Origin: Vitis vinifera
Taxonomy: Eukaryota; Streptophyta; Magnoliopsida; Vitales; Vitaceae
Length of the DNA: 64,000 bases
Assembly: GCF_030704535.1 (NCBI RefSeq)
Contig: NC_081822.1
Coordinates: 3,401,001-3,465,000 of the forward strand
Direction of reading: 5' to 3'
In this document: positions 6,457-63,639 of the stretch, in pieces
Position numbering within the stretch: the stretch's first letter is position 1
Layout of the letters: each line of letters opens with the position of its first letter
Made by a program: the position numbers and the translations under genes
The notes under the pieces: generated by a model
What the model saw: only the letters and a program-made list of their open reading frames with translations
What the model was told of the DNA's origin: nothing
Database searches by the model: none

Positions 6457-7652
6457 ATGGCTCCACACCTTAGCTCGCCTCTATCATTTCTGCTGATTTT
6501 GATTGTAGTTTCATCAGGTAATATCTTCTCTTAATCATTTTTCTTTCATTCTGTCATCTGTTTGGTTCTCCAAAGATAGCATGTATTGTAGAACCAATCC
6601 TAATCATATGATGTTAGAAATTCCTGTGTGATTACCAAAACTTTAAGCCTCTATTTGTACATTTTTCTTGGATGGACAGTGCCACAAATGTCTGAATCGG
6701 CAAGAGTGTTCACTATAACAAACGACTGTAAAGAGACAATCTGGCCGGCGGTCTTCCCGGGCGAATACTTTGATGGTGGGGGCTTTGCCCTAAAAACAGG
6801 CCAATCAAGGGTTTTCACCGCTCCACTGAGCTGGTCTGGGCGTATATGGGGTCGATCAGGTTGCAACTTTGATAAAACTGGTAAGGGAAATTGCCAAACC
6901 GGGAGCTGCGGCGACAACATCAAGTGCTCGGCCTCAGGCAAAACACCTGCAACACTCGCAGAATTCACACTTGCAGCTCTTGATTTCTACGATGTTAGCC
7001 TTGTCGATGGCTTCAACCTACCATTAGTTGTAAAACCCATTAATGGTAAAGGAAATTGCAGCATTGCTGGCTGTGACAGCAACCTAAGGGACACTTGCCC
7101 GTCCGAGCTCGCCCTTAAATCCAGTGGGAAGACTGTAGGGTGCCGGAGTGCATGCGATGTGTTCAACACTGATGAATACTGTTGTAAAGGGCTTTATGGG
7201 AACGCCGCCACATGTGTACCTACCTCCTACTCCAAGAAGTTCAAGGAGGCTTGTCCAGCCGCATATAGTTACGCTTATGATGATCCCTCCAGCATTTTTA
7301 CCTGTTCCGGCACCACCGACTATGTCATCACATTCTGCGGATCAAGGTTGGTAATATTGTATGCATCATATATAATAAATCATCAAACACACGTAATTTA
7401 ATTTACAAATTACAAACCCACCACTTCACATCTTGAAGTCTATCTATGTTCGATCTTCTTAATTACTTGAATGATTACCATCTACTAACCATTAAACATA
7501 TATGAGTTTTTTTTTTATCTTTCAGGCGGCAGCCAGCGTGCACCTACCACAACAACAAACTCATCTGCAGTGGATCTAAGGGCTTAAGATCTTTGATTGG
7601 AGCATGGTGGGCTGTGATGCTCACATTTCTATTAACCATATCCGTCTCTTGA
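6457..7652 (+). CDS. Thaumatin-like protein (PR-5 family) with C-terminal hydrophobic tail
   Basis: Three exons, 6457-6517, 6680-7346 and 7526-7652, with GT-AG introns and matching phases, give 284 residues. The order is signal peptide (residues 1 to about 27, with LSFLLILIVVSS), thaumatin domain, then a tail. The domain has all 16 canonical cysteines, for example NDC, GNCQTGSC, the YCC pair and the final TFC. TLAEFTL and DVSLVDGFN supply the acidic cleft residues. Exon 3 adds two further cysteines and a terminal hydrophobic segment (WWAVMLTFLLTISVS) preceded by small residues, as in GPI-anchored thaumatin-like proteins. The family acts in the apoplast in defence and wall binding, some members on beta-1,3-glucan. 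The usual TGDCG of the signature reads TGSCG here. The start is the first ATG with a signal peptide. Confidence 0.93.
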
Positions 7653-29426: not shown

Positions 29427-30891
29427 AGAACACACAGCATGCTTCAGCAGCTTTCTTCTGTGCAGAACCATAGACATTGTACTTTATCTGGCCTTGATCC
29501 CTCTTTGATTTTTCTTAAGCCCCTGTTAAGTGTGGAACCTGTGATGCAAAGGCAGGTAAGTCATTGCAGTTGTACAGGTGAGAGATGCGGGTTTCCAATT
29601 TTGGCCTAATGGGGAATTCTTGGGTTGCTGCCCTTGTGAAGGTTATGAAACTATTTTTCTACACCTACATATATGTATATATAAATGGTTTAAGTCATTA
29701 ATCTAAGTATCTGCTAGAGAATGAACACATTCAAAAAAATACTTAATGTAATGTCATTTGCACTCTAACCTCTTTTAACAGGAAAATAAGATTAAAATAA
29801 AATAAATTCAAAAAATCAAATTCCAGTTTTCAAAATAATAAGGGCATGATTGCCATTGTACTTGAAATATATATATATATATATATTATAAATTTGTTCT
29901 TAAAACATGCTTTTAGAACAAATTTGAGGTATTTTTAGAGAGATTTAAATAATAATAAAAGGATGGAGAATATTTTTAAAAATGCTATATTATATATAAA
30001 TATGCACCAATTGAATGGAGAATAAATCAAGAAAATTATTATTTTTTATTCGGAGCACCATACTGAGTATAACAAACCATAAGGTAGCCGTCTTAGGGCA
30101 GTAATATGAGTTAATCTTATCGAGGCCGTGCTCTTGAGAACATGCTCATATGGCCGTATTTACAAAAGCACGACTACATGACCATGCTCTCGATAACATG
30201 ATTATATGACTCTGCTCTGGATAACATGACAAGACAATTTCAAAGAATATTCTTATATTAGGTACAGTTATCTTCTTAAGTAATCACCCAGTAGAGAATA
30301 AAAATCAAGTAATGTTTTAGAAACAACTAAGTTAAAATTCAGAGTGAGAATACTAAATGAAATTTTATTCCTTAAAATAATCAAAAAGTGCTTTTAAGAA
30401 TTATCTTAAAAAATTATTTATTGTTTTCCAAATTTTAATTGATTTAGGTCATGGTTAAAAGAAGGTTTTCTCACTTGGAAGAATAAATTAATGTGGGTTT
30501 TTTACTTTTTCCTTCTTTTTTTTTTTTTTTTTTTTTTTTGAGGTTTAAAGAAATTTTATCAAATATTATTTTTACTTTTTTTATTTATTATTTCCGTTCA
30601 TTTTCCCTCTCATTTAACTTTAAAATAAAGGAGGCATATAGATCAATAAAATTAAGCCGATTATGCTTATTGAAGGGACAAGGATGTTTTATTCAAGAGA
30701 AGTGAAGCTGAAGCTGAAGCTTTGCCTTGAAGGAGAAATACGAGAGCCAGTGCGGATTAGCAGACATTAAAATCTTGCGTTTCAGGCTTATGCAGTTGGT
30801 GTCTTTCCATCTCAAGGCTTCGAGTTTTGAAGCCTTGAAAATTGTCATGCCGTTGAAGGTCTTGTACAGATCGATTTACTAGCTCGCCTCC
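29427..30891. other. Intergenic stretch between the O-fucosyltransferase and PPR genes
   Basis: It contains the 3' flank of the O-fucosyltransferase gene, a TA run at about 29869-29886, the second copy of the dispersed repeat (30085-30395) and a 24-base T run (30516-30539). No gene was seen. Confidence 0.6.
30085..30395. repeat. Dispersed repeat, copy 2 (first copy at 5204-5430)
   Basis: Same orientation and same order of blocks as 5204-5430. This copy also has an internal short tandem pattern, with repeated CATGCTC / GATAACATGA motifs between 30130 and 30230. Family unknown. Confidence 0.5.
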
Positions 30892-31011
30892 ATGGGCAAT
30901 CATGGACTTGCATCGAATAGTGAGTGTTATACGCCAGTGTGGCCGATTCCGAGCTTTTCGACATGGAAGATCACTTCATGCTCACATAATCAAACTCGGG
31001 GTTTTCAATGA
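30892..31011 (+). other. Upstream ORF overlapping the PPR gene start
   Basis: ATG at 30892 in a good context (CCTCCATGG) opens 39 codons in another frame and stops at 31009-31011, inside the PPR coding region. If the transcript includes it, ribosomes must leak past it to reach the ATG at 30902. Confidence 0.5.
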
Positions 31012-32974
31012 CGTGTTTTTTGCCAATAATTTGTTGGCCATGTACGTTGATATCTCTCTTTTGAAAGATGCTCGAAGACTGTTTGATGAAACGCTAGAAA
31101 GAAATGTTGCTACATGGACCACAATGATCTCTGCATATTCCAGTAGTGGGAGGCCCGATACTGCTCTCAAATTCTATGTGCAGATGTTAGAGTCCAAATC
31201 AGAGACACCAAATGGGTTCCTGTACTCTGCAGTTCTAAAAGCGTGTGGTCTCGTGGGTGATCTTGAATCGGGTAAATTGATCCATGGAAGAGTTTTTAGA
31301 GCTAATTTAGGGTTTGATACTGTTTTGATGAACACCCTTTTGGATATGTATGTGAAATGTGGGAGTTTGAGTAGTGCCCGGAAAGTTTTTGATGATATTT
31401 TGTGTCCTAGTTCAACTTCGTGGAATACTATGATTTCAGGGTATGGTAAAGAAGGTTTGATGGAGGAGGCTGTGAATTTATTTTATCAAATGCCAGAACC
31501 AGATACTGTGTCTTGGAATAGCATTATTGCTGGTTTTGGGTGTAAAGAAAGTTTGGGTGCTTTGAGATTTGTGTGTATGATGCACCGGAAAGGGCTTAAG
31601 TTGGATGGATTTACATTTTCTTGTGCTCTTAAGACCTGTGGTTGTTTCCAGTTGTTAGTTATGGTGAAACAGATTCATTGTTACGTCAATAAATCAGGTT
31701 TTGGATCCTGCTGTTTTACTGCATCTGCTCTGGTGGATTCATATTCCAACTGCAATGAATTGGATGAAGCAATAAAAATGTTTGATGAATATTCATGCTG
31801 CAGTGCCTCTATTCTTGATTGTTTGCCACTTTGGAATTCTATGCTTTCTGGGTATGTTGTTAATGAACAAAATAGCGCTGCTATCAATCTGGTCTCACAA
31901 ATTCATAGCTTGGGTGCACATGTTGACTCATTCACTTTTGGCAGTGCTTTAAAGGTCTGTATCAACTTGCAGAACTTTAGACTTGGGCTCCAAGTCCAAG
32001 GATTGGCTGTCACTAGTGGGTATGAGTTAGACTATGTTGTTGGAAGCATTCTTATTGATCTCTATGCAAACGATGGGAAAATTAAAGATGCATTAAGATT
32101 GTTTTACAGGCTTCCAGAGAAAGATATTGTGGTTTGGTCCAGTTTAATCTCTTGGTGCACTAAGATGGGACTAAACTCATTGGTTTTTTCACTGTTCAGG
32201 GATATGGTTAATTTGGATATTGAAGTTGATCAGTTTATTATCTCAAGTGTTCTGAAGGCTTGTTCAAGCCTAGTAGGGCTTGGGAGTGGTAAACAGGTCC
32301 ATTCCTTTTGTGTAAAGAGCGGGTATGAATCAGAGAGGATAACAGTAACATCTCTAATTGACCTGTATGCAAAATGTGGTGAAATTGAGGATGGATTAGC
32401 TTTGTTTTATTGTACTTCAGAAAGAGATACTGTGTGTTATACAGGGATCATTATGGGATGTGGGCAAAATGGGAGAGCAATGGAAGCAGTTGGGTTTTTC
32501 CAAGAGATGATAGAGTTGGGGCTAAAACCAAATGAAATAACTTTTCTAGGTGTTCTTTCTGCCTGTAGACATGCTGGTTTAGTGGAAGAAGCATGGACTA
32601 TTTTTAAGTACATGAAAACTGAATATAAAATGGAACCCCACATAGAGCATTACTATTGCATAGTTGAGCTTCTGAGTCAAGCTGGATGTTTCAAAGAGGC
32701 TGAAGAATTGATTGCTGAAATGCCTTTTGAGCCTGATCAGACCATATGGAACTCCTTGCTTGGGGCCTGTGGAACTCACAAGAAGACTGAACTGGTTAAT
32801 TTTATTGCTGAACGTCTTCTAACAACCTTACCTGAAGACCCGTCAATTCTCGTTACACTTTCGAATGTTTATGCTACTTTGGAAATGTGGGATGATTCAA
32901 GAAAAATGAGAGAAGTAATCAAGAAAGTGGGCATGAAAGAAGCTGGGAAAAGCTGGATTCAGATAAAAAGTTAA
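30902..32974 (+). CDS. PLS/E-class pentatricopeptide repeat protein, At4g08210-like
   Basis: Intronless, 690 residues. PPR proteins bind organellar RNA one base per repeat and act in editing, splicing or stability in mitochondria or chloroplasts. Repeats of P, L and S type run through the protein, for example NTLLDMYVKCGSLSSARKVFD, WNTMISGYGKEGLMEEAVNLF and SVLKACSSLVGLGSGKQVHS. An E-type end follows (IWNSLLGACGTHKKTELVN, then SNVYATLEMWDDSRKMREVIKKVG). The DYW deaminase domain is absent; the protein stops after SWIQIKS, which is normal for the E class. Length, repeat order and signature phrases (RPSSTSWNT-like, GLQV..SGYELDYVVGSIL) match Arabidopsis At4g08210 from memory. The N-terminus has no obvious strong transit peptide. 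The 3' end is partly duplicated downstream. Confidence 0.95.
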   Translation: MDLHRIVSVIRQCGRFRAFRHGRSLHAHIIKLGVFNDVFFANNLLAMYVDISLLKDARRLFDETLERNVATWTTMISAYSSSGRPDTALKFYVQMLESKSETPNGFLYSAVLKACGLVGDLESGKLIHGRVFRANLGFDTVLMNTLLDMYVKCGSLSSARKVFDDILCPSSTSWNTMISGYGKEGLMEEAVNLFYQMPEPDTVSWNSIIAGFGCKESLGALRFVCMMHRKGLKLDGFTFSCALKTCGCFQLLVMVKQIHCYVNKSGFGSCCFTASALVDSYSNCNELDEAIKMFDEYSCCSASILDCLPLWNSMLSGYVVNEQNSAAINLVSQIHSLGAHVDSFTFGSALKVCINLQNFRLGLQVQGLAVTSGYELDYVVGSILIDLYANDGKIKDALRLFYRLPEKDIVVWSSLISWCTKMGLNSLVFSLFRDMVNLDIEVDQFIISSVLKACSSLVGLGSGKQVHSFCVKSGYESERITVTSLIDLYAKCGEIEDGLALFYCTSERDTVCYTGIIMGCGQNGRAMEAVGFFQEMIELGLKPNEITFLGVLSACRHAGLVEEAWTIFKYMKTEYKMEPHIEHYYCIVELLSQAGCFKEAEELIAEMPFEPDQTIWNSLLGACGTHKKTELVNFIAERLLTTLPEDPSILVTLSNVYATLEMWDDSRKMREVIKKVGMKEAGKSWIQIKS

Positions 32975-34430: not shown

Positions 34431-35429
34431 CAAAACCTTGGCGAAAGTTGTTATTTAATGATGGTATTCTTGGTCGAAACTGAAAGTTCATAGAGAAAAA
34501 TAAGATTTTAGACCACACAAATGTCTTAATGTTAAACTGATGAGGCATGTTATTAGACAATGGAAGAGAGTGATTGAGTAGTAATAAGACATGAAGCAAG
34601 GATATCAAACAACCAGTATCCTTATGAAAGCTATTTTACTTCTTGGCAATTGGTGAAAAGGTTTAGAGATAAGTAAGACCTTCATGTAGTAACTATTGTT
34701 TCATGATTAGACAACATTAGAGGGTGCTTAAAATAGTAATCTAGTGGCTTTTCATAAGGGAAAAAATGTTATCAGATTAATTGATTTCGATGAAGAACAT
34801 AAATGATGATGCAGTAATTTATGTGATTAAGAACACTTAGGTGGTGTTTGTTTTTTTACTTAATTCTAAATAGAACCTTAATGTTTAATAGCGTTAATAA
34901 TTAGGTTGTTTGTTTTTGTAGTATTTTATTTTTATTAAGTATTAAAAAGTAAAAAAAAAATCAATATATTATTTTTTCTATTTAGAAAAAACTATATATT
35001 TTGGTTTTTTTATTTAGTAATGGAAGAGAGTGATTGAATAGTAATAATCACTCTCTAATATTTTTTTTTTTATTTAGAAAATACAATCACTCTCTAATAA
35101 GACACAATTATCTTATTCTCTAATATTCGTTCGATCAAACTAGCTCGCATAGAAGTAAGCAAATCTCAATAGTAAGATGAAGTGAATGGAATTCAGCTTT
35201 TGTAAAACTAGAAAAGTAGAAAGAGAAACAAAGAAATACCGAAAATTGAAGTGTAAAGATACGCAAAAGTAAACTTTTTTATTGCCTTGTATTAATTACG
35301 TGAAGAAGGCTCAACCATGACAGGTAAAGATGATCTTTTTCTAATATTTTCTGAATTGATCATAGTCAAATTTGTTAAGGATTTTATAGAGGTCTCTGGT
35401 GTGTTGATTGATAATATTACCTAGTTCAG
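34431..35429. other. Spacer upstream of the U3 array
   Basis: AT-rich. A small hairpin has AGAGAGTGATT at 35025-35035 paired with AATCACTCTCT at 35046-35056; a related GGAAGAGAGTGATTGA string also occurs at 34561-34577. Bases 35195-35275 look like a very old unit of the following tandem array (AACTAGAAAAG...ATTGAAGTGTAAAGATACGCAAAAG). Confidence 0.4.
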
Positions 35430-36183
35430 AAGCCCGATAATTTCAGGACTAAGTGTATTTAATATTCGGAAAACTAGGAAGAGAAATGAAGACATTAAAA
35501 GAGATGTTGAAATAATAATAGTTGAAGTATGAAGATATGTAAAAATTCCTTTTTCTCAAACAGGCAAAGCTGGCTGGGAACGATCCTCTGCCATTTTAAG
35601 ATCCAAGGACCACCAAACTGTTCATTATTCTCTAATCACATGGTTATAATTCACCCAAACTGGGATGAGAAATGGAGAAATGATGACAATTGAAGTATGA
35701 AGAATGCAGAAGTATGTTTGCCTCAAGTGGAAAAAGGGAAGCATTGGGGGTCTGTCAGGTAACCATGTGACCATCCCATTCAGACAGAGCTGGCTGGGAA
35801 CGATCCTCTACCATTGTAGTGACCCAAGGACCACCAAACTGTTCATTATACTCTAATCACATGGTTATAATTCATCCAAACTGGGAAGAGAAATGGAGAA
35901 ATGATGACAATTGAAGTATGAAGAACGCAAAAGTATGTTTGCCTCAAGTGGAAAAAGGGAAGCATTGGGGTCTGTCAGATAACCATGTGACCATCCCATT
36001 CAGACAGAGCTGGCCGGGAACGATCCTCTACAGTTGTAGTGACCCCCAAGGACCACCGAACTGTTCATTATACTCTAATCACATGGTTATAATTCATCCA
36101 AACTGGGAAGAGAAATGGAGAAATGATGACAATTGAAGTATGAAGAACGCAAAAGTATGTTTGCCTCAAGTGGAAAAAGGGAG
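35430..36183 (-). repeat. Tandem array of about 220-bp units carrying the 3' half of U3 snoRNA
   Basis: The U3 stem sequence GCTGG(C/T)(C/T)GGGAACGATCC, read on the plus strand, recurs at 35569, 35789, 36009 and 36223, offsets 220, 220 and 214. Each unit holds, on the minus strand, U3-like sequence from the TGGATGAA box to the 3' end (GTCTGACAGAC-like; present from 35750 and 35970), then a T5 run. The 5' third of U3, which pairs with pre-rRNA, is replaced by about 70 bases of unrelated sequence. They are therefore 5'-truncated U3 copies. The leftmost unit is the most decayed, and fainter traces continue left. Confidence 0.8.
36174..36178 (-). terminator. Pol III T-run terminator after U3 copy D
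   Basis: Five T bases on the minus strand begin six bases beyond the U3 3' end at 36184, where a Pol III U3 gene in plants should terminate. Confidence 0.65.
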
Positions 36184-36378
36184 GTCTGTCAGACAACCAT
36201 GTGACCATCCCATTCAGACACAGCTGGCCGGGAACGATCCTCAAGGACCACCGAACTGTTAATCACGCTCTGATCACATGGTCACAATTCATCCACCAGA
36301 CGTAGGTTCCTGTCTCCTTAGAACTCAAGGATACAGAGGTACGAGCCTATAGAACAGATCCTGTTCAAGTAAGGTCGT
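36184..36378 (-). ncRNA. U3: U3 small nucleolar RNA, copy D (short body, own promoter and terminator)
   Basis: U3 is the C/D-class snoRNA of the small-subunit processome and guides early pre-rRNA cleavage. On the minus strand the RNA starts ACGACCTTACTTGAACAGG and continues GGATCTGTTCTATAGGCTCG, the box A region that pairs with pre-18S rRNA. TGGTGGATGAA (C' region), ATCAGAGCGTGATT (box B region), the GGATCGTTCCC stem and GTCTGACA (box D) follow in order. Compared with copy E it lacks about 16 bases between GGTGGTCC and GAGGATCG. The promoter (USE and TATA) is complete and a T5 terminator follows, so it could be transcribed. Ends are set by family comparison and may shift by a few bases. Confidence 0.88.
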
Positions 36379-36402
36379 GCTTTCTAACCGTAACTCAGTG
36401 TT

Positions 36403-36445
36403 CTAAAATACCTCTACTTTCTTTTGTACGCTCTCGATGTGGGAT
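36403..36445 (-). promoter_or_regulatory. Plant snRNA-type promoter (USE + TATA) of U3 copy D
   Basis: ATCCCACATCG at 36435-36445 (minus strand) is an exact match to the upstream sequence element RTCCCACATCG. After 24 bases comes TATTTTAG (36403-36410), and the RNA start is 32 bases from the TATA start. A USE-TATA distance of about 23-25 bases is the Pol III configuration in plants, as expected for U3. Confidence 0.85.
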
Positions 36446-36684
36446 TGTATCTATTCAGAAGCTTGTGCAGACTACAGAAGTAAGCTAGATATAAAGATGT
36501 TTTCTTATGTTTTTTTCTGTCATTTTATATATTCAAAACCAGACCAGAATGTTCTGAAAAGTCTGGCATACTTTAATTAATGTGTGGGTGGATGACAGAC
36601 TAGTTGCATGGGCTTCCTTATTTTCTAAAATATTGCAAGTGGTGTTATAAAGTCGGGATATTTAATTACAAGTTGATAGAGAGA

Positions 36685-36935
36685 CTGGATCATCTAACAC
36701 GATACCTGAGATGAAAAACTTTGACAATGCGAAGGATCTCGAGGGGTTAATTCTTGATGATAGTATTTGGAGCAGCGTTACATTTACTGAATAGGTTTGC
36801 CAGAACACTTCCTTTCCTTCGGTTGAAACTTGGAACCCAGCCAATACAACCAATCAATTTGAATTTCAGAGATGGAAAAGGTGAAAGACATTAGAGTCCC
36901 TTCCAAGTCTACCTTTACTACTCAAATGATTTCTT
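36685..36935 (+). repeat. Duplicated segment with coding-like character, copy 2
   Basis: Diverged copy of 33249-33560, in the same orientation and about 3.4 kb away. A possible peptide is PEMKNFDNAKDLEGLILDDS followed by IWSSVTFTE, matching PEMPKHHHIFGNQRDLERDV and VLDDNVWSHVAFT in copy 1. Conservation of the peptide between the copies hints at former coding sequence. Confidence 0.5.
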
Positions 36936-36945
36936 CTTTTATCTT

Positions 36946-37526
36946 GTAACCGGAAGAGGTACCAACAGAAGTGGTGCATGCATTAGAAGAAGATGAATTA
37001 AGGGTTAATGCTTCTGATGAAATTTTGCTGAATTCCAATACCGAAACAGGGATTGCAGCGTATCTAAGCATTCAGGAGGAGGGCTTTGATTTGAATGAGA
37101 GTTCCGGCAATTTCGGGTTCTTATGATGTTAAAGATCAGAATATTGCATCAGATAATGTGGAAGAAACTGCTTTCAATTCTACATTGTTGGATGCTGCAA
37201 ATTCTGCTGATGAGGATGAAAAGGTCAGGGAGGATTTGACAATTTTGAGATTGAAAACACAGGATCTTGAGCCAGTTGAGCCACCATCCACTAATGAGTG
37301 AAGTGAATATTGCCGGTGATGATTGGAGTCCAAAAAGTGATGTTGCTGAGCTTGTGGAAGAGAAATTGAGTCAGATGGAGAGCAAGATGGGTCGTAAAAG
37401 GACGGAGAAGAAACATCCGGGACTAAGACATGGAATAGGGATGTCAGAAAACCGGTATCCTTTCGTAAGGAAGATGAACTACGAAAGCTATTTCGTTGCT
37501 TGGGCGAAGTTGCAAAGTGTTTTTGT
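36946..37526 (+). pseudogene. Decayed coding segment of unknown family
   Basis: Acidic, coding-like sequence runs through three forward frames in turn: a frame with EEVPTEVVHALEEDELRVNA to about 37125; then SYDVKDQNIASDNVEETAFN to DLEPVEPPSTNE, ending at 37301; then SEVNIAGDDWSPKSDVAELV to NYESYFVAWAK by about 37510. The frame changes and the stop imply a pseudogene, or unrecognised splicing. It ends exactly where U3 copy E begins. I do not recognise the family. Together with 33660-33714 and the paired segments it may descend from one lost gene. Confidence 0.45.
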
Positions 37527-37527
37527 A

Positions 37528-37738
37528 GTCTGTCAGACAACCGCCTGATCATCCCAACCAGGGAAAGCTTGTTGGGAACGATCCTCTGCCGTTGCATGAT
37601 CCGTGGACCATCTAACTGCTAATCACGCTCTGATCAAACGGTCTTAGTTCATCCACCAGACTGAAGTTCCTGTCTCCTTTGAACTCAAGGATACAGAGGT
37701 ACGAGCCTATAGAACAGATCCTGTTCAAGTAAGGTCGT
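37528..37738 (-). ncRNA. U3: U3 small nucleolar RNA, copy E (full-length body)
   Basis: About 211 nt on the minus strand, close to the usual plant U3 length. It starts ACGACCTTACTTGAACAGG and has the box A region (GGATCTGTTCTATAGGCTCG), the GGTGGATGAACTAAG C' region, GATCAGAGCGTGATT (box B region), GGATCATGCAACGGCAGAGG, the hairpin with CCCAAC pairing to GTTGGG, TTGGGATGATCA, and GTCTGACAGAC at the end (box D). The hairpin arms differ from copy D yet still pair, suggesting selection for structure at some time. The promoter is complete. No T run of four or more directly follows the 3' end; the next is about 130 bases away, which is odd for a Pol III gene. Confidence 0.9.
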
Positions 37739-37762
37739 GCCCTTTGACACTATCCAACGCAT

Positions 37763-37804
37763 CAAAATAACCGTTCCATTTTTTGTGAAGTCCCGATGTG
37801 GGAC
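37763..37804 (-). promoter_or_regulatory. Plant snRNA-type promoter (USE + TATA) of U3 copy E
   Basis: GTCCCACATCG (37794-37804, minus strand) matches the USE consensus exactly. After 23 bases comes TTATTTTG (37763-37770), and the RNA start lies 32 bases from the TATA start, the same as in copy D. The spacing indicates Pol III. Confidence 0.85.
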
Positions 37805-40975: not shown

Positions 40976-42564
40976 CTAAGACTCTGTGTAGATAACAACA
41001 AAGCAAGGCAAAATAGCCTTAGGATTAGACACATATAGCTCATCCAAATTAGAGTAGACCCCACCAACCCCAGCCACTGAGTCAAACTCCTCCGTACAGA
41101 CTCCTCCCTCCAACTGAGTTGCACTCTTCTTCACCCTCCCAGCTATCACTCGGCAAACCAGCATGGCCCTCTTCTCATTATCATCCGGCAACGACATTCT
41201 AGAACTGTCATGGGCTTTTCCGCTGGTGGCTGTGGTCAGAATCCCTTTTCCGGGAACCCCTCCGGCCACCTTGAAACCGTTCTTGATGATACTGCAGATA
41301 CTGCAGCTTGGAATTGAGTTGCAGAGATTGGAGGAACCGTTGAGGCCGATGGAGCAGACGAAAGTGGTGCAGTGGAAGCGGAGGAGTTCATTGCCGTCTG
41401 CCACGCAGCGTGGGTGTTTCTTTTGGAGCTTGGTGGCTTTGGTTTTAATGGAGTCTCTGTATTCTTCGAATTTGGATATAGTTTTGGGGGTGTTGTGGAC
41501 TTTGAGAATGCGGTCGATTTTGCAGACTGGCGCTTGTTTCTTTAGCCAGCTCGATTGGAATATGATTTCCACTATGTTCTTGCTTGTGTCTTCTGGGCCC
41601 AGTTCGGACACTGTGAATTTTGACAGACCAAGAACAATGAGTGTAGTAACTAGGAAAAGCTAATTGAAATTGGCAAGATAAAGGATTACCCATAAGATTA
41701 CGTTCGGTCACTGAGTAAATAAAGCAAAAGAAATTAAAAAAAAATTACGAGTCCTGTTTTTTCATCATTGAGATTCCAGACCCTCCCTTCCATCGACTAT
41801 AAATACAATGGTGGTCCTGTATTGTTTTCTTTTACTCTATTTATCAGCCACCAAACTAAGGGTAAATGAGTAAAGATTTCTTTGGTAAAAAAAAAAAAAA
41901 CTCATCATTGCCTGAAACCTGGAAGTAGTTACTTACCGGCGTGTCTGACGGCCTGATGAAGCTCCAAATTTTCAGCTTTCATGAAGATTTCACCACAATC
42001 AGGACAAGAACAGATGGTGGTTCTCAATGAAGGGTCTCTAGTGATTCCAAGAACAGGGTCAACCACCATTCTGCACTCATAGCACCCAGATAGTCTCCTG
42101 AAAGGCATTCCTCTAAAGGACCCACCAACAGAAGAGTTAGAAGACGCAGAAATAGACAATGAGGAAGAAGTGGAAGAAACAACCCCATTGAGTTCACTTA
42201 GAGGAGCTTTCATGGATCTGCTGGAACCGTCATTGTTGGATGAAGCCATCGAAGGCCTTTTCTTGTGGTCTTCAGGGGAAGACATTTCAGGCCTGTGCAT
42301 GACCTTTGTGTTGCTACACAGTGAACCAGAACACTTCATTTTCTTGCACTTTTTGCCGCTTCCCTCCACGGTTTGTTCTCGCCGTTGCTTCTGTTGTTGC
42401 CCTTCTTCTTGCTTTTGCTGCTGTGGCTGAGTCTGGAGATGTTTGCAGGTCAAAAGGCTTCTCACAACCGCCCAAGAAGGAGGTTTCTCTGATTTTTGGG
42501 GTACCTGGTCTTGCTTTGTACGGATTTCCTTAATGACTTCTCTCGGGTTTCTGGTTTTAGCCAT
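40976..42564 (-). CDS. C2H2 zinc-finger protein with PARP-like C-terminal region
   Basis: Two exons, 41937-42564 and 40976-41610, with a 326-base GT-AG intron, give 420 residues. The N-terminal half is basic and rich in Gln and Ser (a QQQKQEEGQQQKQRREQ tract). A single C2H2 finger, CPDCGEIFMKAENLELHQAV then RH (C-x2-C-x12-H-x4-H), sits at the end of exon 1. Exon 2 holds the conserved region of this plant family, related to the PARP catalytic fold: WLKKQAPVCKIDRILKVHN, DGNELLRFHCTTFVCSIG, GKGILTTATSGKAHDSS, MLVCRVIAGRVKKS and PKAILPCFVVIYTES. It resembles Arabidopsis proteins such as At4g27240/At5g54630 by memory; I cannot name the orthologue. The biochemical role is unknown. The ATG at 42564 (MAKTRNPREVIKEI) is preferred; an in-frame ATG at 42771 would add 69 less conserved residues. 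Confidence 0.88.
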
Positions 42565-50430: not shown

Positions 50431-51290
50431 CTATTATTAAACTTAAACAAATAGCTTAAATTATATTGATTTGATAAATTAATTTTAATACAAAAATAAT
50501 TAAAATTTAAAACAAACATACCTTGCAATAATTGAGCAACTTTGGTTTGGAGTTAATTCACAAACTTGACTTATAAATTCCAAAATTTATAAAATTTTGA
50601 GAATAATAACAAAAATATATATGAGCAATAGGAGATCAATACACTTTGGAATGAAATGTGGATGAAATGAATTGAGAATAAATTATTTATAGAAAAAAAT
50701 TGGGCCAAAATAGGCGTTGGAAAGTGATTTTAATGTTGAAATCATTTATGGGTATTAGATCAAAATCTAGGTGAAATATAACCGTTAGATCATCTAGTAG
50801 TTGTTGGGATCACTTTCCAATCATTGGATCATCTCTCGGATTAAATTTGAGCCCTTGGATCACCCTTATGATCATTACATCATCTTTAAAGATGCGGACA
50901 TGATTTGGGTTATTGGATTAAAGTGTACGTGATCTAGGGCATCATATCAAGTCAATAGTAGACCATTTCATATTTGCATACACAAGTGTGATCTAGACCA
51001 TCTAATCAATGCAGGTGTGATATGGACTGTTAGATCATGCACAATGGGAGAAGATATTTATGTAAAAAAAATCAATGATTTATTGCTGATATATCATCGA
51101 AAAATCAATGATTTTTTATTGCCATAACAATTTATTACGTACGCCATCGATTTATCTCGTCAATATATCGACAATTTTTGATGATTTTTGCGATATTTTC
51201 ATGCCTTGATATATTACACTTATATATTATTTCCATGCCCATCGATATGGGACATATTGGTGATATATAGCGATATTTTCCTCCTTAGAT

Positions 51291-51657: not shown

Positions 51658-54600
51658 ATGGACGGGGAGGCTAACCTTCCGGCCCCATCTGCGTCTGCCA
51701 ATAATCTCAGCCGTCCGATCCTGCCTGACTCCTATCAGAACCGTTCGATCACCTCGTCGTCATCGTCATCATCATCGTCATCATCGTTCTATTCATCTTC
51801 TCCGCCGGACTTTCTCCGGCATGTCCAGGCTGCCTTCAAGCGCCACCGTCCACTCGGTATCTCCCTCACTGGGTTTCGTTTCTATTCCTAGAGTGTGCTG
51901 TACCGTATCGGATGTAATTATAATAAAAAAAGCTAGGGTTTTGTTGGTCCTTTGGTATTTTCTCAAAATTTTCCGTCTTTGACGTTTTAACTACTTCTGT
52001 ACAGATCTCTTTATTCTTGAGTGAAAGTAGAAAATATAATAACTCAAATTCATGTTCCCTTCAAATTTTGATATGTCAAGACTAATTTTTTTTGGTTGGA
52101 CTAACCAGTCAAACTTGAGTTCCCTCAATTTTACTATTTTTGTTCTCTCCATTTCCATTTGCTCAGGCTTCCCTTCTCTTTCCTGGCCGCATATATGATT
52201 CGGGGATACTGGTTTTTTCAGTGGATTAACACCTCAATTTTGGGTTATTTTGACTTTTGTCATGTCTATTATGGTATTTTTCAGGTACAATGCAGTCTAA
52301 TAGTATTATGCCAAGGCGTATATTGGTTCCCCGGCGAGAAACCTCAAAGATCACTGCATCAAATGTGGTTCCCACAATAGATGCCAAAAAATCTCAGGAT
52401 GTGCGTCCTTCAATGCATCAGGGTAACACAGGGAAAGAGTTGGTTGTGGAGATAAGGAACAAGGTATCTGTTGTTGGGGAAACTGAAGAAGATGCACCAA
52501 TTACTCCACCTTCAATTTCAGGCAGTATCACTAATGAAGATCTATATGATGTGCAACGAGTGCAATGCAAACCCGTTGCTGGATGCAAAAATACTGATGG
52601 GGTTTCATTTTCACATGTAGAATCTCAGCATGTTCCAGTTGTTGATGGTCAGAAGAAGGTCCAGTTTTTGTTGGGGAAAAATGCTAGCTCACAGGGTAAT
52701 AAGTTGCTTTGTCTTTCCTCTGAATTGTTAGTTTAGAAATTATGTTACTGGTTTTGGTGCAAGTTTATATCACAGCGACACTGTGAAAAAAACACTCTGT
52801 TGTTCTAAAGATTGATAGTTTCATGAAATCACAAATATTGCAACTTATATGTGAGTTCTGCCACTATGTGATTGTCATTATGTTCTTCCATATACATTGC
52901 ATTCTCTGTCCATATGCAGGGGCCGATGATCGAATGGCCACTGGAACAGACGACCTATCATCTCATATGAGTTCACTTGCATTGACAGAAATGGAATGGG
53001 ATGTGAGCAATCAAGTAGAGGCACCAACTGATGTCAATCATGACTTGAAGCATGGGTATTTTCAGAACCTGGAATCAGATGTTACTTCGAGGTCTGATGG
53101 TGGGATTTCTTCTTTATTGGCAAAGAAACCTGTACTTGCTCAGGATCAGCTGCACCGATTCAGAAACTTCTTGCAGAGTGACATAAACCACCCCATGACT
53201 CAAGCTTCAGTGGCTGGATCATCATGTGCTACTACAATATCTGTTCATGCAACTTCTGCACCAGTGATCAATTCAACAACCTACTGCTCCTCTTCACATC
53301 AAGATATTAGTCCTCACCTGGCAGTAGAAACTCTGGGAGATGTTAATCTTAATTCTCAACCTATAAGTAAAGGAGATGTTATGCAGCCATCGCATCCTCC
53401 ATCTAAGTCCACCAGTGGAGTCATAGTTGACCGCACAGCAATTGCAGCCCAAGCTTCATCTTCTTCCATAGATACCCAGTCGAAAGTTAAGGAATATGGC
53501 TTTAGTGAGCAACAAGACAGAGTGCCAAATGAAAGGGACATTCCAAAGAATCCTTCTCCTCTTGATGATAATTCAACTAAAGGAAAAGGATTCACTGGTG
53601 ATGTTACTGATTTACAATCTCAGGTGCCCTTATCCAAAAGTTCATCATCAGATGTGAAATTGGAGACCTCTAAATCTGAAAAACAAGAAAAGGTTGTAAG
53701 TGGTAAAGGGTCATCAGTGCCTCGCAAAAAGAATTATGATCCTGACATGTTTTTGAAAGTTAATGGTAAGCTCTATCAAAGGCTTGGTAAGATAGGTAGT
53801 GGAGGAAGCAGTGAAGTCCACAAAGTTATATCATCAGATTGTTCTATCTATGCCCTTAAAAAAATCAGGCTTAAAGGTCGTGATTATGCTACTGCATATG
53901 GGTTCTGTCAAGAGATTCAATATTTAAACAAGTTGAAAGGGAAGAGCAACATCATACAACTTATTGACTATGAGGTACTCACCTCCAACCTAAAATCAAT
54001 TATTTAGTAATATTTTATTCTTATTTCTTCTGATAGTTATTGGTTTTACATGTGTTTTTCGTGCTGCATTCATTTTTTTTGGGAACCAAATCATGCTAAA
54101 TTGTCTGCGCCATAGTTAAGAAATTGAAATCACTTTGACTATCATAACATTGTAGCAACGTCTAGTTGGAAAACAAGGTGTGAATTCTATATGCTGTCAA
54201 CCAGATTTGGATGGCTAGGCTTCCTACTAAATGTTAGCTTTCCAAATAAGTGGTCTATATCAGCTGATCAAGTGGCTTTAAAGACCTGAATCTACTCCAA
54301 TTAGAGGATTTGATGGGCATGTGGTGCCTGTGGAATAGCCCAAGCAAACTGACCAACGAGAGGGGAATAGAACGACTATGCAGTAACTGAATAATGACCA
54401 GTTAGGCCAATTAAATTATCTGAGGATGGGCCTTAAATGATGCAATCATGGTTGTAGGGTCGCCAGGTTGCTGATTGGATTTAACCCACTTTGGTGACAG
54501 ATAATTTGTCCTTCATTTATTCTAAATTTGTGCAGACATTTATCTAATTAATTAGTTAGAAAGAGGAAGAAATTTGTCCTTAATTTATGTAGAATTCACC

Positions 54601-60600: not shown

Positions 60601-63600
60601 TTTAAAAAATTTAATCAACATTGCATACCTTTGAATAGGTTTGTTGGATGGCTTCCCAAATCTTCCTAACTATTGTAAAAAACATACATGTTTTACTAAT
60701 TTCAAGGGTCATTGAAATCCATAACAAAGACATGATCATGGAATCCTTTTCATCCCAACTTTGAATTTTTGAATTTAAATGGCTCAATTTTTCCTTCACC
60801 TTTTATTAAGATTTGCACCAACTTAAGCCATTGAAGATAATTCTTCTCAACCAAGTAGTAAGGAGCTTGGAGGTTTTGCAGTTTCTCAGTTAGTTTGGGC
60901 TAGCATAAAAGATTTGGGATCCTTGGATTTCTTCTTCGCAATATGCGAGAGTGGCAGAAAGTGGGTCAACACGTGACAGGCGAATGACATGATTCTCGAG
61001 GAGTTAGATGACGACCATGTGATGATGCATCAAATAGATGCAAGGGTCCCTGGTGCCAGGGGAAGGAAGATAAGGAGGCTCGGGAAACGATTCATAATGA
61101 TCGGTTTGTCTTGGTGGCACTTAGAATTTTGACTCAATAGAATTAGTGGTAAGAGTGCCCTTGAGGCTTGGCTTAAGTGGTAAAGGGATGAGGAGGCTCT
61201 GTGAAAGGTTTCAGGTTCAAGCCCTAATGGGAACAAAAAATTATCTATAAAAAAAAGAAAAAAATAATTAGTGGCAGGAGTATGGTTCAACATCTCTAAC
61301 ATAGTAGTAATGATGACTGCAGATAGAACTATAACCAGAAAGAAATTGACGATGAAAGCTAATGAATCAAAACATGGTCAAAAAAGCAAAAAACAAATAA
61401 GGACAAATAGCACTCAAAGTTTTCGCCAATCACATCGAGAATCGAGAGTTGGCTCTAACACCATGTGAAATTCTAAATTATTCTTATTTACATAAATCAA
61501 GAGATACATCAGAATATGTATATAGCCTTCCCTATTCTAAGAAAGGATAATTCATGATATACATGATAATTCAAATTAATTAAAATCTCTTAGTAACTAA
61601 TTTTACATATGTACAAGAAGAGTCATAAAAGGAGAAAAGTCTTAACAAATTTACAGTTGTTCAAGAAGAGGCTTAAAAAGATAAAAATCCTTATTTATAG
61701 GACTCAAACTTGAACCATAACCCTATAAATTATCATGCTTTTAGACAAAAGCCAACTTTAATGTGTGATTTTAGTTTTTGGTAGATACAGGTCATATCAG
61801 GTCGATACATAATGGCATTAGTCTAAAATGATATTGATTGGGGTCAATTTAGTGAAGTTATACAAATTATCAGATCAAATACTTAATGTTGGACCTAAGA
61901 AGTTAGTGCCAGCCGTTGTTTCTTCTTCTATAAAGATAAGAGACTCAATCCCTAATTTGAATTAACAATGTTAAATGTTAAGATACTAGTGAGAATCTAG
62001 ATTTGATAAAACTTAATGAAGCATGATTCTATATAATCCTTTGTTTTCTCTTTAAAATTATTTTATTTAATTTATTCAGAATTCTGGATATTTGTAAACA
62101 AACTCATGAGAATAAACATGTTGCAAGTCATTTACAAATTTATGACCATGTGATTGTCTTGATCAATCATATTTTGTTCTATCCATAAATGTTCACATTT
62201 TATCGAGTTGGAACTAGAAACTTTTAATTTTAAGGTAAAACTTAAGAAGAAGAATGAGAAGAAAGTATAAAAAGATAATATAGACTAGCTATAGGTTTGT
62301 CCAACTAGACTTCCACTTAACCTCTCATCTATTTAACCAAATTACAAATTTGTGTTGCACCTCAAGGCCCCACCAAGCCTCCACATGATCACTAAGAAGC
62401 CTTAGTCATCACCTTGCCTTGCTCAATAGGCACTGCAAGGTGCCAACCATGGGGCCTTCGTGCTGCATTGTCTGAGTCAGTGTTGACGCTACAATAACCC
62501 TAGGTCCTTGAGGCCTGGCTTAAGTGGTTGGGGGTCAGGACAGTTGTGAGAGATTCCATGTTTAAGTCCTAATGGGGACAAAAATTTACCTATTAGAATA
62601 GAATGTGAAACTTAAATGTTAGGTTAAAGTCAAGAAGGAGAAGAAAAAAGCACTGAGGTTAAGTTTGCCTAACTAGACTTAATTGTAACTCCTAATTTTT
62701 TTATGTTATTAACTAAGATTACAATAATGCCTTGATAATCAATAAACAAAATCACTCCTAATATAGCATAATAAATAACCCGTTGACAAATTGAATTTCT
62801 TATCATTTTTATTTGGCTAAAATTTAGAACCATACTCTAAATATATATACTTTCAACATTTTTTATTGATCACTTGAAAAACAAGAGAGGTGCTGGACCC
62901 TATGAAAAAGTAATTTATGTTCTCCTAACCAGTTTTCGAATTATGTACAAGGCATGTTTTGTATGCTTTTGCAAATCAATGGCCTTTTCTTTATGTCAGA
63001 TAATTGGAGAGGAAACGCCATTTTTCACTATGCAGTGATGCTTTTGTAATCTTCTCACAGGTGGGTACACTGAGCTACATGTCTCCTGAAGCATTCATGT
63101 GCAATGAGAGTGATGCCAATGGAAACACTATAAAGTGTGGTCGGCCATCAGATATCTGGTCACTTGGTTGCATCCTTTACCAAATGGTGTATGGAAGAAC
63201 CCCCTTTTCAGAATTCAAGACATTCTGGGCCAAGTTCAAAGTCATTACAGATCGTAACCATGAAATAAAGTATGAGCCAGTCTCAAACCCATGGCTTCTT
63301 GATATTATGAAGAAGTGTCTTGCATGGGACCGTAATGAGAGGTGGAGGATTCCTGAGCTACTTCAACACCCTTTTCTTGTTCCCCCAGTCCCAGTCCTAG
63401 CCCAGTTATCATCCTCTCAAGACCAAAGCTGTAAACTGCTTCAACTGATTACTGAAGCTTGTGCCAATGACCCGAAGGCTTTGATTTTATGTCGTCAACT
63501 TCAACAACTACTAAGGGACCCAGTCACGGTGCCAACATCTCAAGTACTAACATCACGAGACCAACAGTGTAAGTTGCTCTCCTATGTGTCAAAGCTTTGC

Positions 63601-63639
63601 TGTCAACTTCAGGAATATTTATCAGACCCCGATACGTAA
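51658..63639 (+). CDS. MPS1: MPS1/TTK-type dual-specificity protein kinase
   Basis: Spindle-assembly-checkpoint kinase acting at kinetochores; plants have one MPS1 type. Six exons, 51658-51856, 52285-52695, 52920-53974, 54612-54812, 55107-55268 and 63061-63639, join in phase to 868 residues. The N-terminal 480 residues are low-complexity, with a run of 11-12 serines near residue 33 coded by a TCATCG-type microsatellite. The kinase domain covers about 485-790: IGSGGSSEV glycine loop, YALKKIRL lysine, [13 protein letters not shown] catalytic loop (HSD in place of HRD, the MPS1 hallmark), LIDFGIAK, then [15 protein letters not shown] across the exon 5/6 junction, as in human TTK. Intron 5 is 7792 bases and full of mobile elements. 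Confidence 0.95.
57549..58559. mobile_element. Non-autonomous TIR element (about 1 kb, hAT-like) inside the Copia fossil
   Basis: The left end ATGGTTTGAAATATCGGT and the complement of the right end (ATGGTTTGAAATGTCGCG) match. Flanking 8-base repeats TGATAACC and CGATAACA agree at six positions, fitting hAT-type target duplications. The interior is AT-rich, with recurring ATATCGG motifs and a TA run near 58261-58280, and has no transposase. Its left part is similar to the left margin of the larger element at 46470. Confidence 0.65.
58283..58370 (+). mobile_element. tRNA-derived SINE-like patch
   Basis: A box-A-like TGGTCCAGTAGTAG precedes, by a SINE-typical distance, a box-B-like GGTTTGAATCC, followed by an A-rich stretch. 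It does not fold as a complete tRNA. It lies inside the TIR element at 57549-58559. No target-site duplication was found. Confidence 0.4.
61156..61265 (+). mobile_element. tRNA-derived SINE, copy 1, with target-site duplications
   Basis: The body contains CTTGAGGCTTGGCTTAAGTGG (box A region), GGTTCAAGCCC (box B) and GGGAACAAAAAATTATCTAT, ending in an A-rich tail. It is flanked by 15-base direct repeats AATTAGTGGTAAGAG (61141-61155) and AATTAGTGGCAGGAG (61266-61280), 13 of 15 identical, the mark of LINE-mediated insertion. It lies in the right part of the Copia fossil. Confidence 0.8.
62507..62597 (+). mobile_element. tRNA-derived SINE, copy 2
   Basis: Same family as 61156-61265: CTTGAGGCCTGGCTTAAGTGG, GTGAGAGATTCCATGTTTAAG, TCCTAATGGGGACAAAAATT and TACCTATTA follow in the same order and orientation. 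Box B is more diverged and no clear target-site duplication was seen, so this copy is probably older. Confidence 0.7.

Follow-up and report, generated by a model that had tools for sequence, protein, structure and literature searches.

U3 RNA helps cut ribosomal RNA. Both the genes for it and the layout of their promoters, a USE followed by a TATA-like box, are already familiar from plants, grape included, as the available portions of PMC9845283 and PMC7917103 attest. For instance, grape U3 and U6 promoters with these two elements have been cloned and drive sgRNA, according to the excerpts of PMC7917103. The VvU3.1 and VvU3.2 promoters of that work place a USE and a TATA-like box before Vitis vinifera U3, like the two copies described here; they are given, in the same excerpts, as Ensembl identifiers without coordinates or letters, and the comparison concerns their layout. 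As stated in the accessible part of PMC9845283, the spacing between USE and TATA-like box is one helical turn shorter in Pol III genes than in Pol II snRNA genes. Within the text at hand of two other papers, U3 snoRNA occurs once, as the annotation term of a protein gene (PMC10939405), or only within a reference (PMC5122169), and our literature search found no paper locating either of the U3 loci analysed here.

We estimate, with a probability of about 0.9, that two genes of a small plant U3 snoRNA family, dispersed in the genome, lie in the window (the whole 64-kb stretch of Vitis vinifera DNA that was analysed), with promoters that are, as judged from their layout in the sequence, of Pol III type. 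An Rfam cmscan of the whole window with all families yielded two matches above the gathering score, which is 80 bits for RF01847, and both were to Plant_U3 (RF01847) on the minus strand. The preliminary description had proposed two minus-strand U3 bodies and a covariance search with Rfam U3 as the way to check them; both bodies proved significant and matched over the full model, and only their 3' ends were displaced, by one base further than the 36184 and 37528 originally given. The bodies and their promoter elements are as follows.

37527..37738, minus strand: U3 snoRNA body of copy 2 (WIN2; copy 37738), Plant_U3 188.1 bits, E 5.7e-52, model 1-221
37762..37769, minus strand: TATA-like box of copy 2, TATTTTGA, 24 nt past the USE and 31 nt before +1
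37794..37804, minus strand: USE of copy 2, GTCCCACATCG, exact RTCCCACATCG, start at -66
36183..36378, minus strand: U3 snoRNA body of copy 1 (WIN1; copy 36378), Plant_U3 173.7 bits, E 1.3e-47, model 1-221
36403..36410, minus strand: TATA-like box of copy 1, TATTTTAG, 24 nt past the USE and 32 nt before +1
36435..36445, minus strand: USE of copy 1, ATCCCACATCG, exact RTCCCACATCG, start at -67

Copy 37738 keeps the helices of the Rfam model, with 12 of 12, 9 of 10 and 39 of 43 pairs formed in its three domains. The full-model match and the helices of RF01847 are common to both window copies, but copy 36378 differs in lacking the apical helix between boxes B and C. Indeed, either window copy is without one feature that most other full-length copies retain, and the completeness first attributed to them holds for the promoters and not for the whole genes: copy 36378 has no apical B/C hairpin and copy 37738 no oligo-T near its 3' end. 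It is true, as had also been pointed out, that an annotation limited to proteins misses both U3 genes, but this is a general statement.

An exact USE does precede each body, as originally claimed, and the RNA of both window copies starts at ACGACC. The spacings reported at first, 23-24 bases for the TATA-like box and 32 for the start, are correct to within one base, the values measured being 24 and 24, and 31 and 32; the discrepancy in the TATA figure appears because the start of the first box was taken one base differently. Counting against our reading, a TATATAA box is found in the pair of copies on contig C6, and both window TATA boxes match TATATAA less well. Allowing up to one mismatch, RTCCCACATCG occurs three times in the window, against 0.56 expected, and three occurrences were reached in none of 100 shuffles. 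The third site (51243-51253, one mismatch) was discarded as a chance occurrence, with AT-rich surroundings and no Rfam match alongside. This extra site with no RNA match beside it is what favours the idea that all the USE and TATA matches are due to chance, the U3-like bodies being dispersed copies without promoters. Against it, the position of the USE is constant to one base across unlinked copies whose upstream sequence is largely dissimilar. Likewise, a search of the whole genome for the exact arrangement USE-N54..57-ACGACCTTACTTG reported five cases, two of them the window copies, versus none for the control pattern read backwards, and we consider an origin by chance extremely improbable.

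We compared the offsets of the USE with those of U6 (Pol III) and U2 (Pol II) promoters from the same genome, in a table that took in 6 of 15 Plant_U3, 17 of 25 U6 and 17 of 18 U2 matches. All six full-length U3 copies have their USE start at -66 or -67, and that of C8:21202354 carries two mismatches. Eight of the 17 U6 copies have a USE with at most one mismatch, which starts at -66 in seven of them and at -62 in the eighth, and the remaining nine show at least four mismatches. Upstream sequence is masked for 12 of the 17 U2 copies, leaving five readable; three of these five have a USE with at most two mismatches, starting at -76 or -77. In both the USE and its -66 offset, therefore, most of the eight U6 copies with such a USE resemble the window U3 copies, whereas U2 promoters have the same USE about 10 nt further upstream. 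Because the published spacing rule and the U3, U6 and U2 offsets of this genome agree, we assign both window promoters to the Pol III type by layout, in support of the plant Pol III U3 layout that the preliminary description had recognized. With these three sets of offsets, the plant Pol III rule is also calibrated within a single genome.

By analogy with known systems, the USE and the TATA-like box, lying one helical turn closer than in Pol II snRNA genes, would recruit RNA polymerase III, which would start at the A of ACGACC. The first ca. 72 nt of the U3 RNA would then pair with pre-rRNA (5' ETS, 18S), guiding 18S processing, and the 3' domain, with boxes C'/D and B/C, would bind C/D proteins and Rrp9. 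Transcription and function of the window copies are thus what we infer from their sequence and from this analogy.

Searching the genome (496 Mb, 21 contigs) with Plant_U3, for which 29 candidates were scored, retrieved at least 15 matches, at least eight of them above the cut-off. At least six are full-length copies located on three contigs: the two in the window, two on C6, with 956 bases between their starts, and two on C8. All six also figure among the 12 places listed in a genome search with the 72-nt 5' domain, and five of them show an exact USE and start at the right spacing. Two other matches above the cut-off, C18:6606976 (88.4 bits) and C14:28194273 (81.7 bits), have no recognisable USE and were classed as degenerate and kept out of the full-length six. 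Seven lower-scoring matches span the model. The promoter table covered 13 of the 15 Plant_U3 matches, all but L020 and L021, which the USE tally likewise leaves out; in this tally, the USE has at least three mismatches in the five of those seven that were checked, all degenerate (C18_6.6, C14, C3, C2 and C4). The sixth full-length copy, L012 (C8:21202354-21202563), is probably a pseudogene: its USE has two mismatches, a TTTT occurs internally, and its box D reads GTATGA for GTCTGA. The top U3 score among the matches listed, 203.7 bits, corresponds to C6b (L007, C6:7495585-7495800).

The 5' domain is nearly invariant among these copies. In the first 72 alignment columns, copy 36378 agrees with the two C6 copies throughout (72/72) and copy 37738 differs from them at one position; beyond column 72, differences from the C6 copies amount to 33-34 of 124 columns for copy 36378 and 41-44 of 140 for copy 37738. 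Compared with C8a, the 5' domains of the window copies show 1-2 differences in 71 positions plus one gap. The 3' domain, for its part, largely retains its helices, as 93.6% of 377 pair cells are standard (shuffle mean 88.9), and it displays paired changes. Both sides have changed in 15 of 65 pairs, versus a shuffle mean of 9.3 and at most 6 with slid partners; a value as high was seen in 2 of 500 shuffles, a significance that is overstated because the six copies are related. The covariation score is 0.264, compared with at most 0.076 with slid partners, for a structure taken from the Rfam model via copy 37738, a procedure that favours that structure somewhat. Two results count against: the further pair types, 33, are not above those of shuffles (mean 34.5), and free folding of the 3' domain of copy 37738 did not reproduce the helices of the model.

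Three copies outside the window, C6a, C6b and C8a, combine an exact USE, the apical segment and a near TTTT, C6b with one change in box B. It is conceivable, if unlikely, that U3 RNA is supplied by these two copies on C6 and one on C8, both window copies being pseudogenes that keep their promoter and 5' domain. The three possess both of the features missing from the window, the full-length apical B/C segment that copy 36378 lacks and the near oligo-T that copy 37738 lacks, and the locus contains truncated copies and an inserted exon-like fragment (see below), all of which would suit such an interpretation. Yet both window copies have an exact USE and keep the long stem, the 5' domain of copy 36378 matches those of the C6 copies at every position, and the copies that are degenerate have lost the USE. 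Besides, the presumed suppliers are imperfect too, since box B reads GAGCGAGA in C6b and GAGCGTGA in the other five full-length copies. We retain the interpretation of the two copies as members of the U3 gene family with Pol III-type promoters, each lacking one feature.

Copy 36378 has lost the apical B/C helix, with the junction at approximately 36242/36243, while the boxes themselves are kept; copy 37738 retains the B/C motif together with its helix. Of the 43 pairs in the 3' domain of copy 36378, 13 coincide with the gap and two more are unpaired. The 19-nt remnant of the apical segment folds with -0.7 kcal/mol, versus -7.1 to -17.0 in the other five full-length copies, the weakest of which, C6a, folds no better than shuffles (92/300). 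Because this helix is missing, we judge copy 36378 to be probably a damaged copy. According to the available text of PMC5354517, Rrp9 of yeast makes contact with Snu13 and with helix P4 close to the B/C kink-turn, and by analogy the missing helix would correspond to P4. Copy 36378 could alternatively be a functional short U3 variant that dispenses with the apical B/C helix, in favour of which its promoter and near oligo-T are intact, as are the 5' domain, the stem of box C'/D and the long central stem, and its 3' domain folds better than 198 of 200 shuffles. Nevertheless, the apical segment is longer in all five of the other full-length copies (with the reservation already made for C6a), Rrp9 touches both Snu13 and P4 in yeast, and the deletion adjoins a tract of near identity with a truncated repeat, as a recent recombination accident would leave; such a variant seems to us quite improbable. 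Slightly more remote still is the proposal that copy 36378 makes a stable and useful shortened U3, either a minimal U3 or a competitor for pre-rRNA pairing that would not assemble the full particle. A C3 paralogue (L015) was considered as a carrier of the same hairpin deletion, which, if true, would imply long survival of a hairpin-less U3; it was dropped, as the break in the MAFFT alignment falls after the apical segment and not inside it, and the fold of the C3 segment leaves the idea of a shared deletion unsettled.

The two window copies also differ downstream of the RNA, where the following oligo-T tracts were located.

36174..36178, minus strand: TTTTT, candidate Pol III terminator of copy 1, starting at +5 after the RNA end
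37448..37451, minus strand: first TTTT past copy 2, at +76 from the RNA 3' end; if it serves as a Pol III terminator at all, a weak or distant one

No TTTT occurs in the 75 nt that follow the 3' end of copy 37738, whereas each of the other five full-length copies carries one at +5 to +11. For positions chosen at random in these loci, a TTTT follows within 75 nt in 56% of cases and within 11 nt in 15.5%, and because of the former value the sequence downstream of copy 37738 resembles random sequence with regard to TTTT. A near TTTT in at least five of six copies would arise by chance with a probability of ca. 0.0005 if the copies were independent, but their independence is incomplete. The absence of an internal TTTT from the window copies supports them weakly, because the degenerate C14, C2, C4, t1 and t2 are also without it. 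From its sequence, we regard expression of copy 37738 as probable, perhaps as an RNA with an extended 3' trailer. The 3' flank of this copy (37424-37503) shows a short similarity to positions 34585-34646, ca. 2.8 kb apart, with a best piece of 31 of 39 bases, which may be what is left of a further U3 copy.

Downstream of copy 36378, truncated copies of U3 follow one another in steps of 221/222 bases.

35970..36110, minus strand: 5'-truncated U3 copy t1, without promoter or 5' domain, Plant_U3 63.3 bits (below 80), model 71-220
35750..35888, minus strand: 5'-truncated U3 copy t2, without promoter, Plant_U3 53.5 bits (below 80), model 71-220
35554..35680, minus strand: probable third remnant t3, truncated at both ends, limits approximate, from repeat families D1 and D4 and the sequence

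Both t1 and t2 lack the first ca. 70 nt, and t3 is absent from the Plant_U3 covariance-model matches listed. The repeat unit of this array (35554-36110 in all) comprises the 3' two thirds of U3 plus ca. 75 nt of 3' flank, and the truncated copies are most likely non-functional tandem debris. Ahead of box C, copy 36378 with its 3' flank and t1 differ at 9 of 60 positions; from box C through the last base of the flank, they differ at 2 of 132 plus an 8-base gap (the figure of the aligner from box C on is 3/191, of which 59 positions belong to the next repeat). Aligned with this adjoining truncated copy, copy 36378 shows a 19-nt gap at the lost helix, and the 18 bases directly before the deletion are identical to t1. 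This pattern suggests that copy 36378 and the repeat exchanged sequence recently, the deletion lying in the tract or adjoining it. The locus can thus be viewed as a local record of the decay of U3 copies through tandem duplication.

The spacer between the two U3 copies includes a segment, 36952-37417, with 89% identity to part of C15. The matching part of C15 falls within a long open frame, a 424-aa translation free of stops (L023:1481-2752:-), for which no Pfam family was found at E 0.001. Similarly, a Pfam scan of five translations from the window (four from 36668-37618 and one from 40979-41659) gave none at the cut-off. A protein gene in the spacer that would be part of the U3 genes was consequently rejected, given the lack of a Pfam match and the apparent derivation of 36952-37417 from C15; this stretch looks like a copied-in exon fragment.

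With a known gene family and a known promoter, the two genes have little significance beyond annotation. For genome editing, their promoters represent more natural candidates of a type already used. Elsewhere in the window, we observed a thaumatin-like frame (6604-7401) and a pentatricopeptide-repeat frame (30857-32974), as well as the two ends of a protein kinase domain at 52787-54007 and 63004-63639, perhaps one gene with introns.
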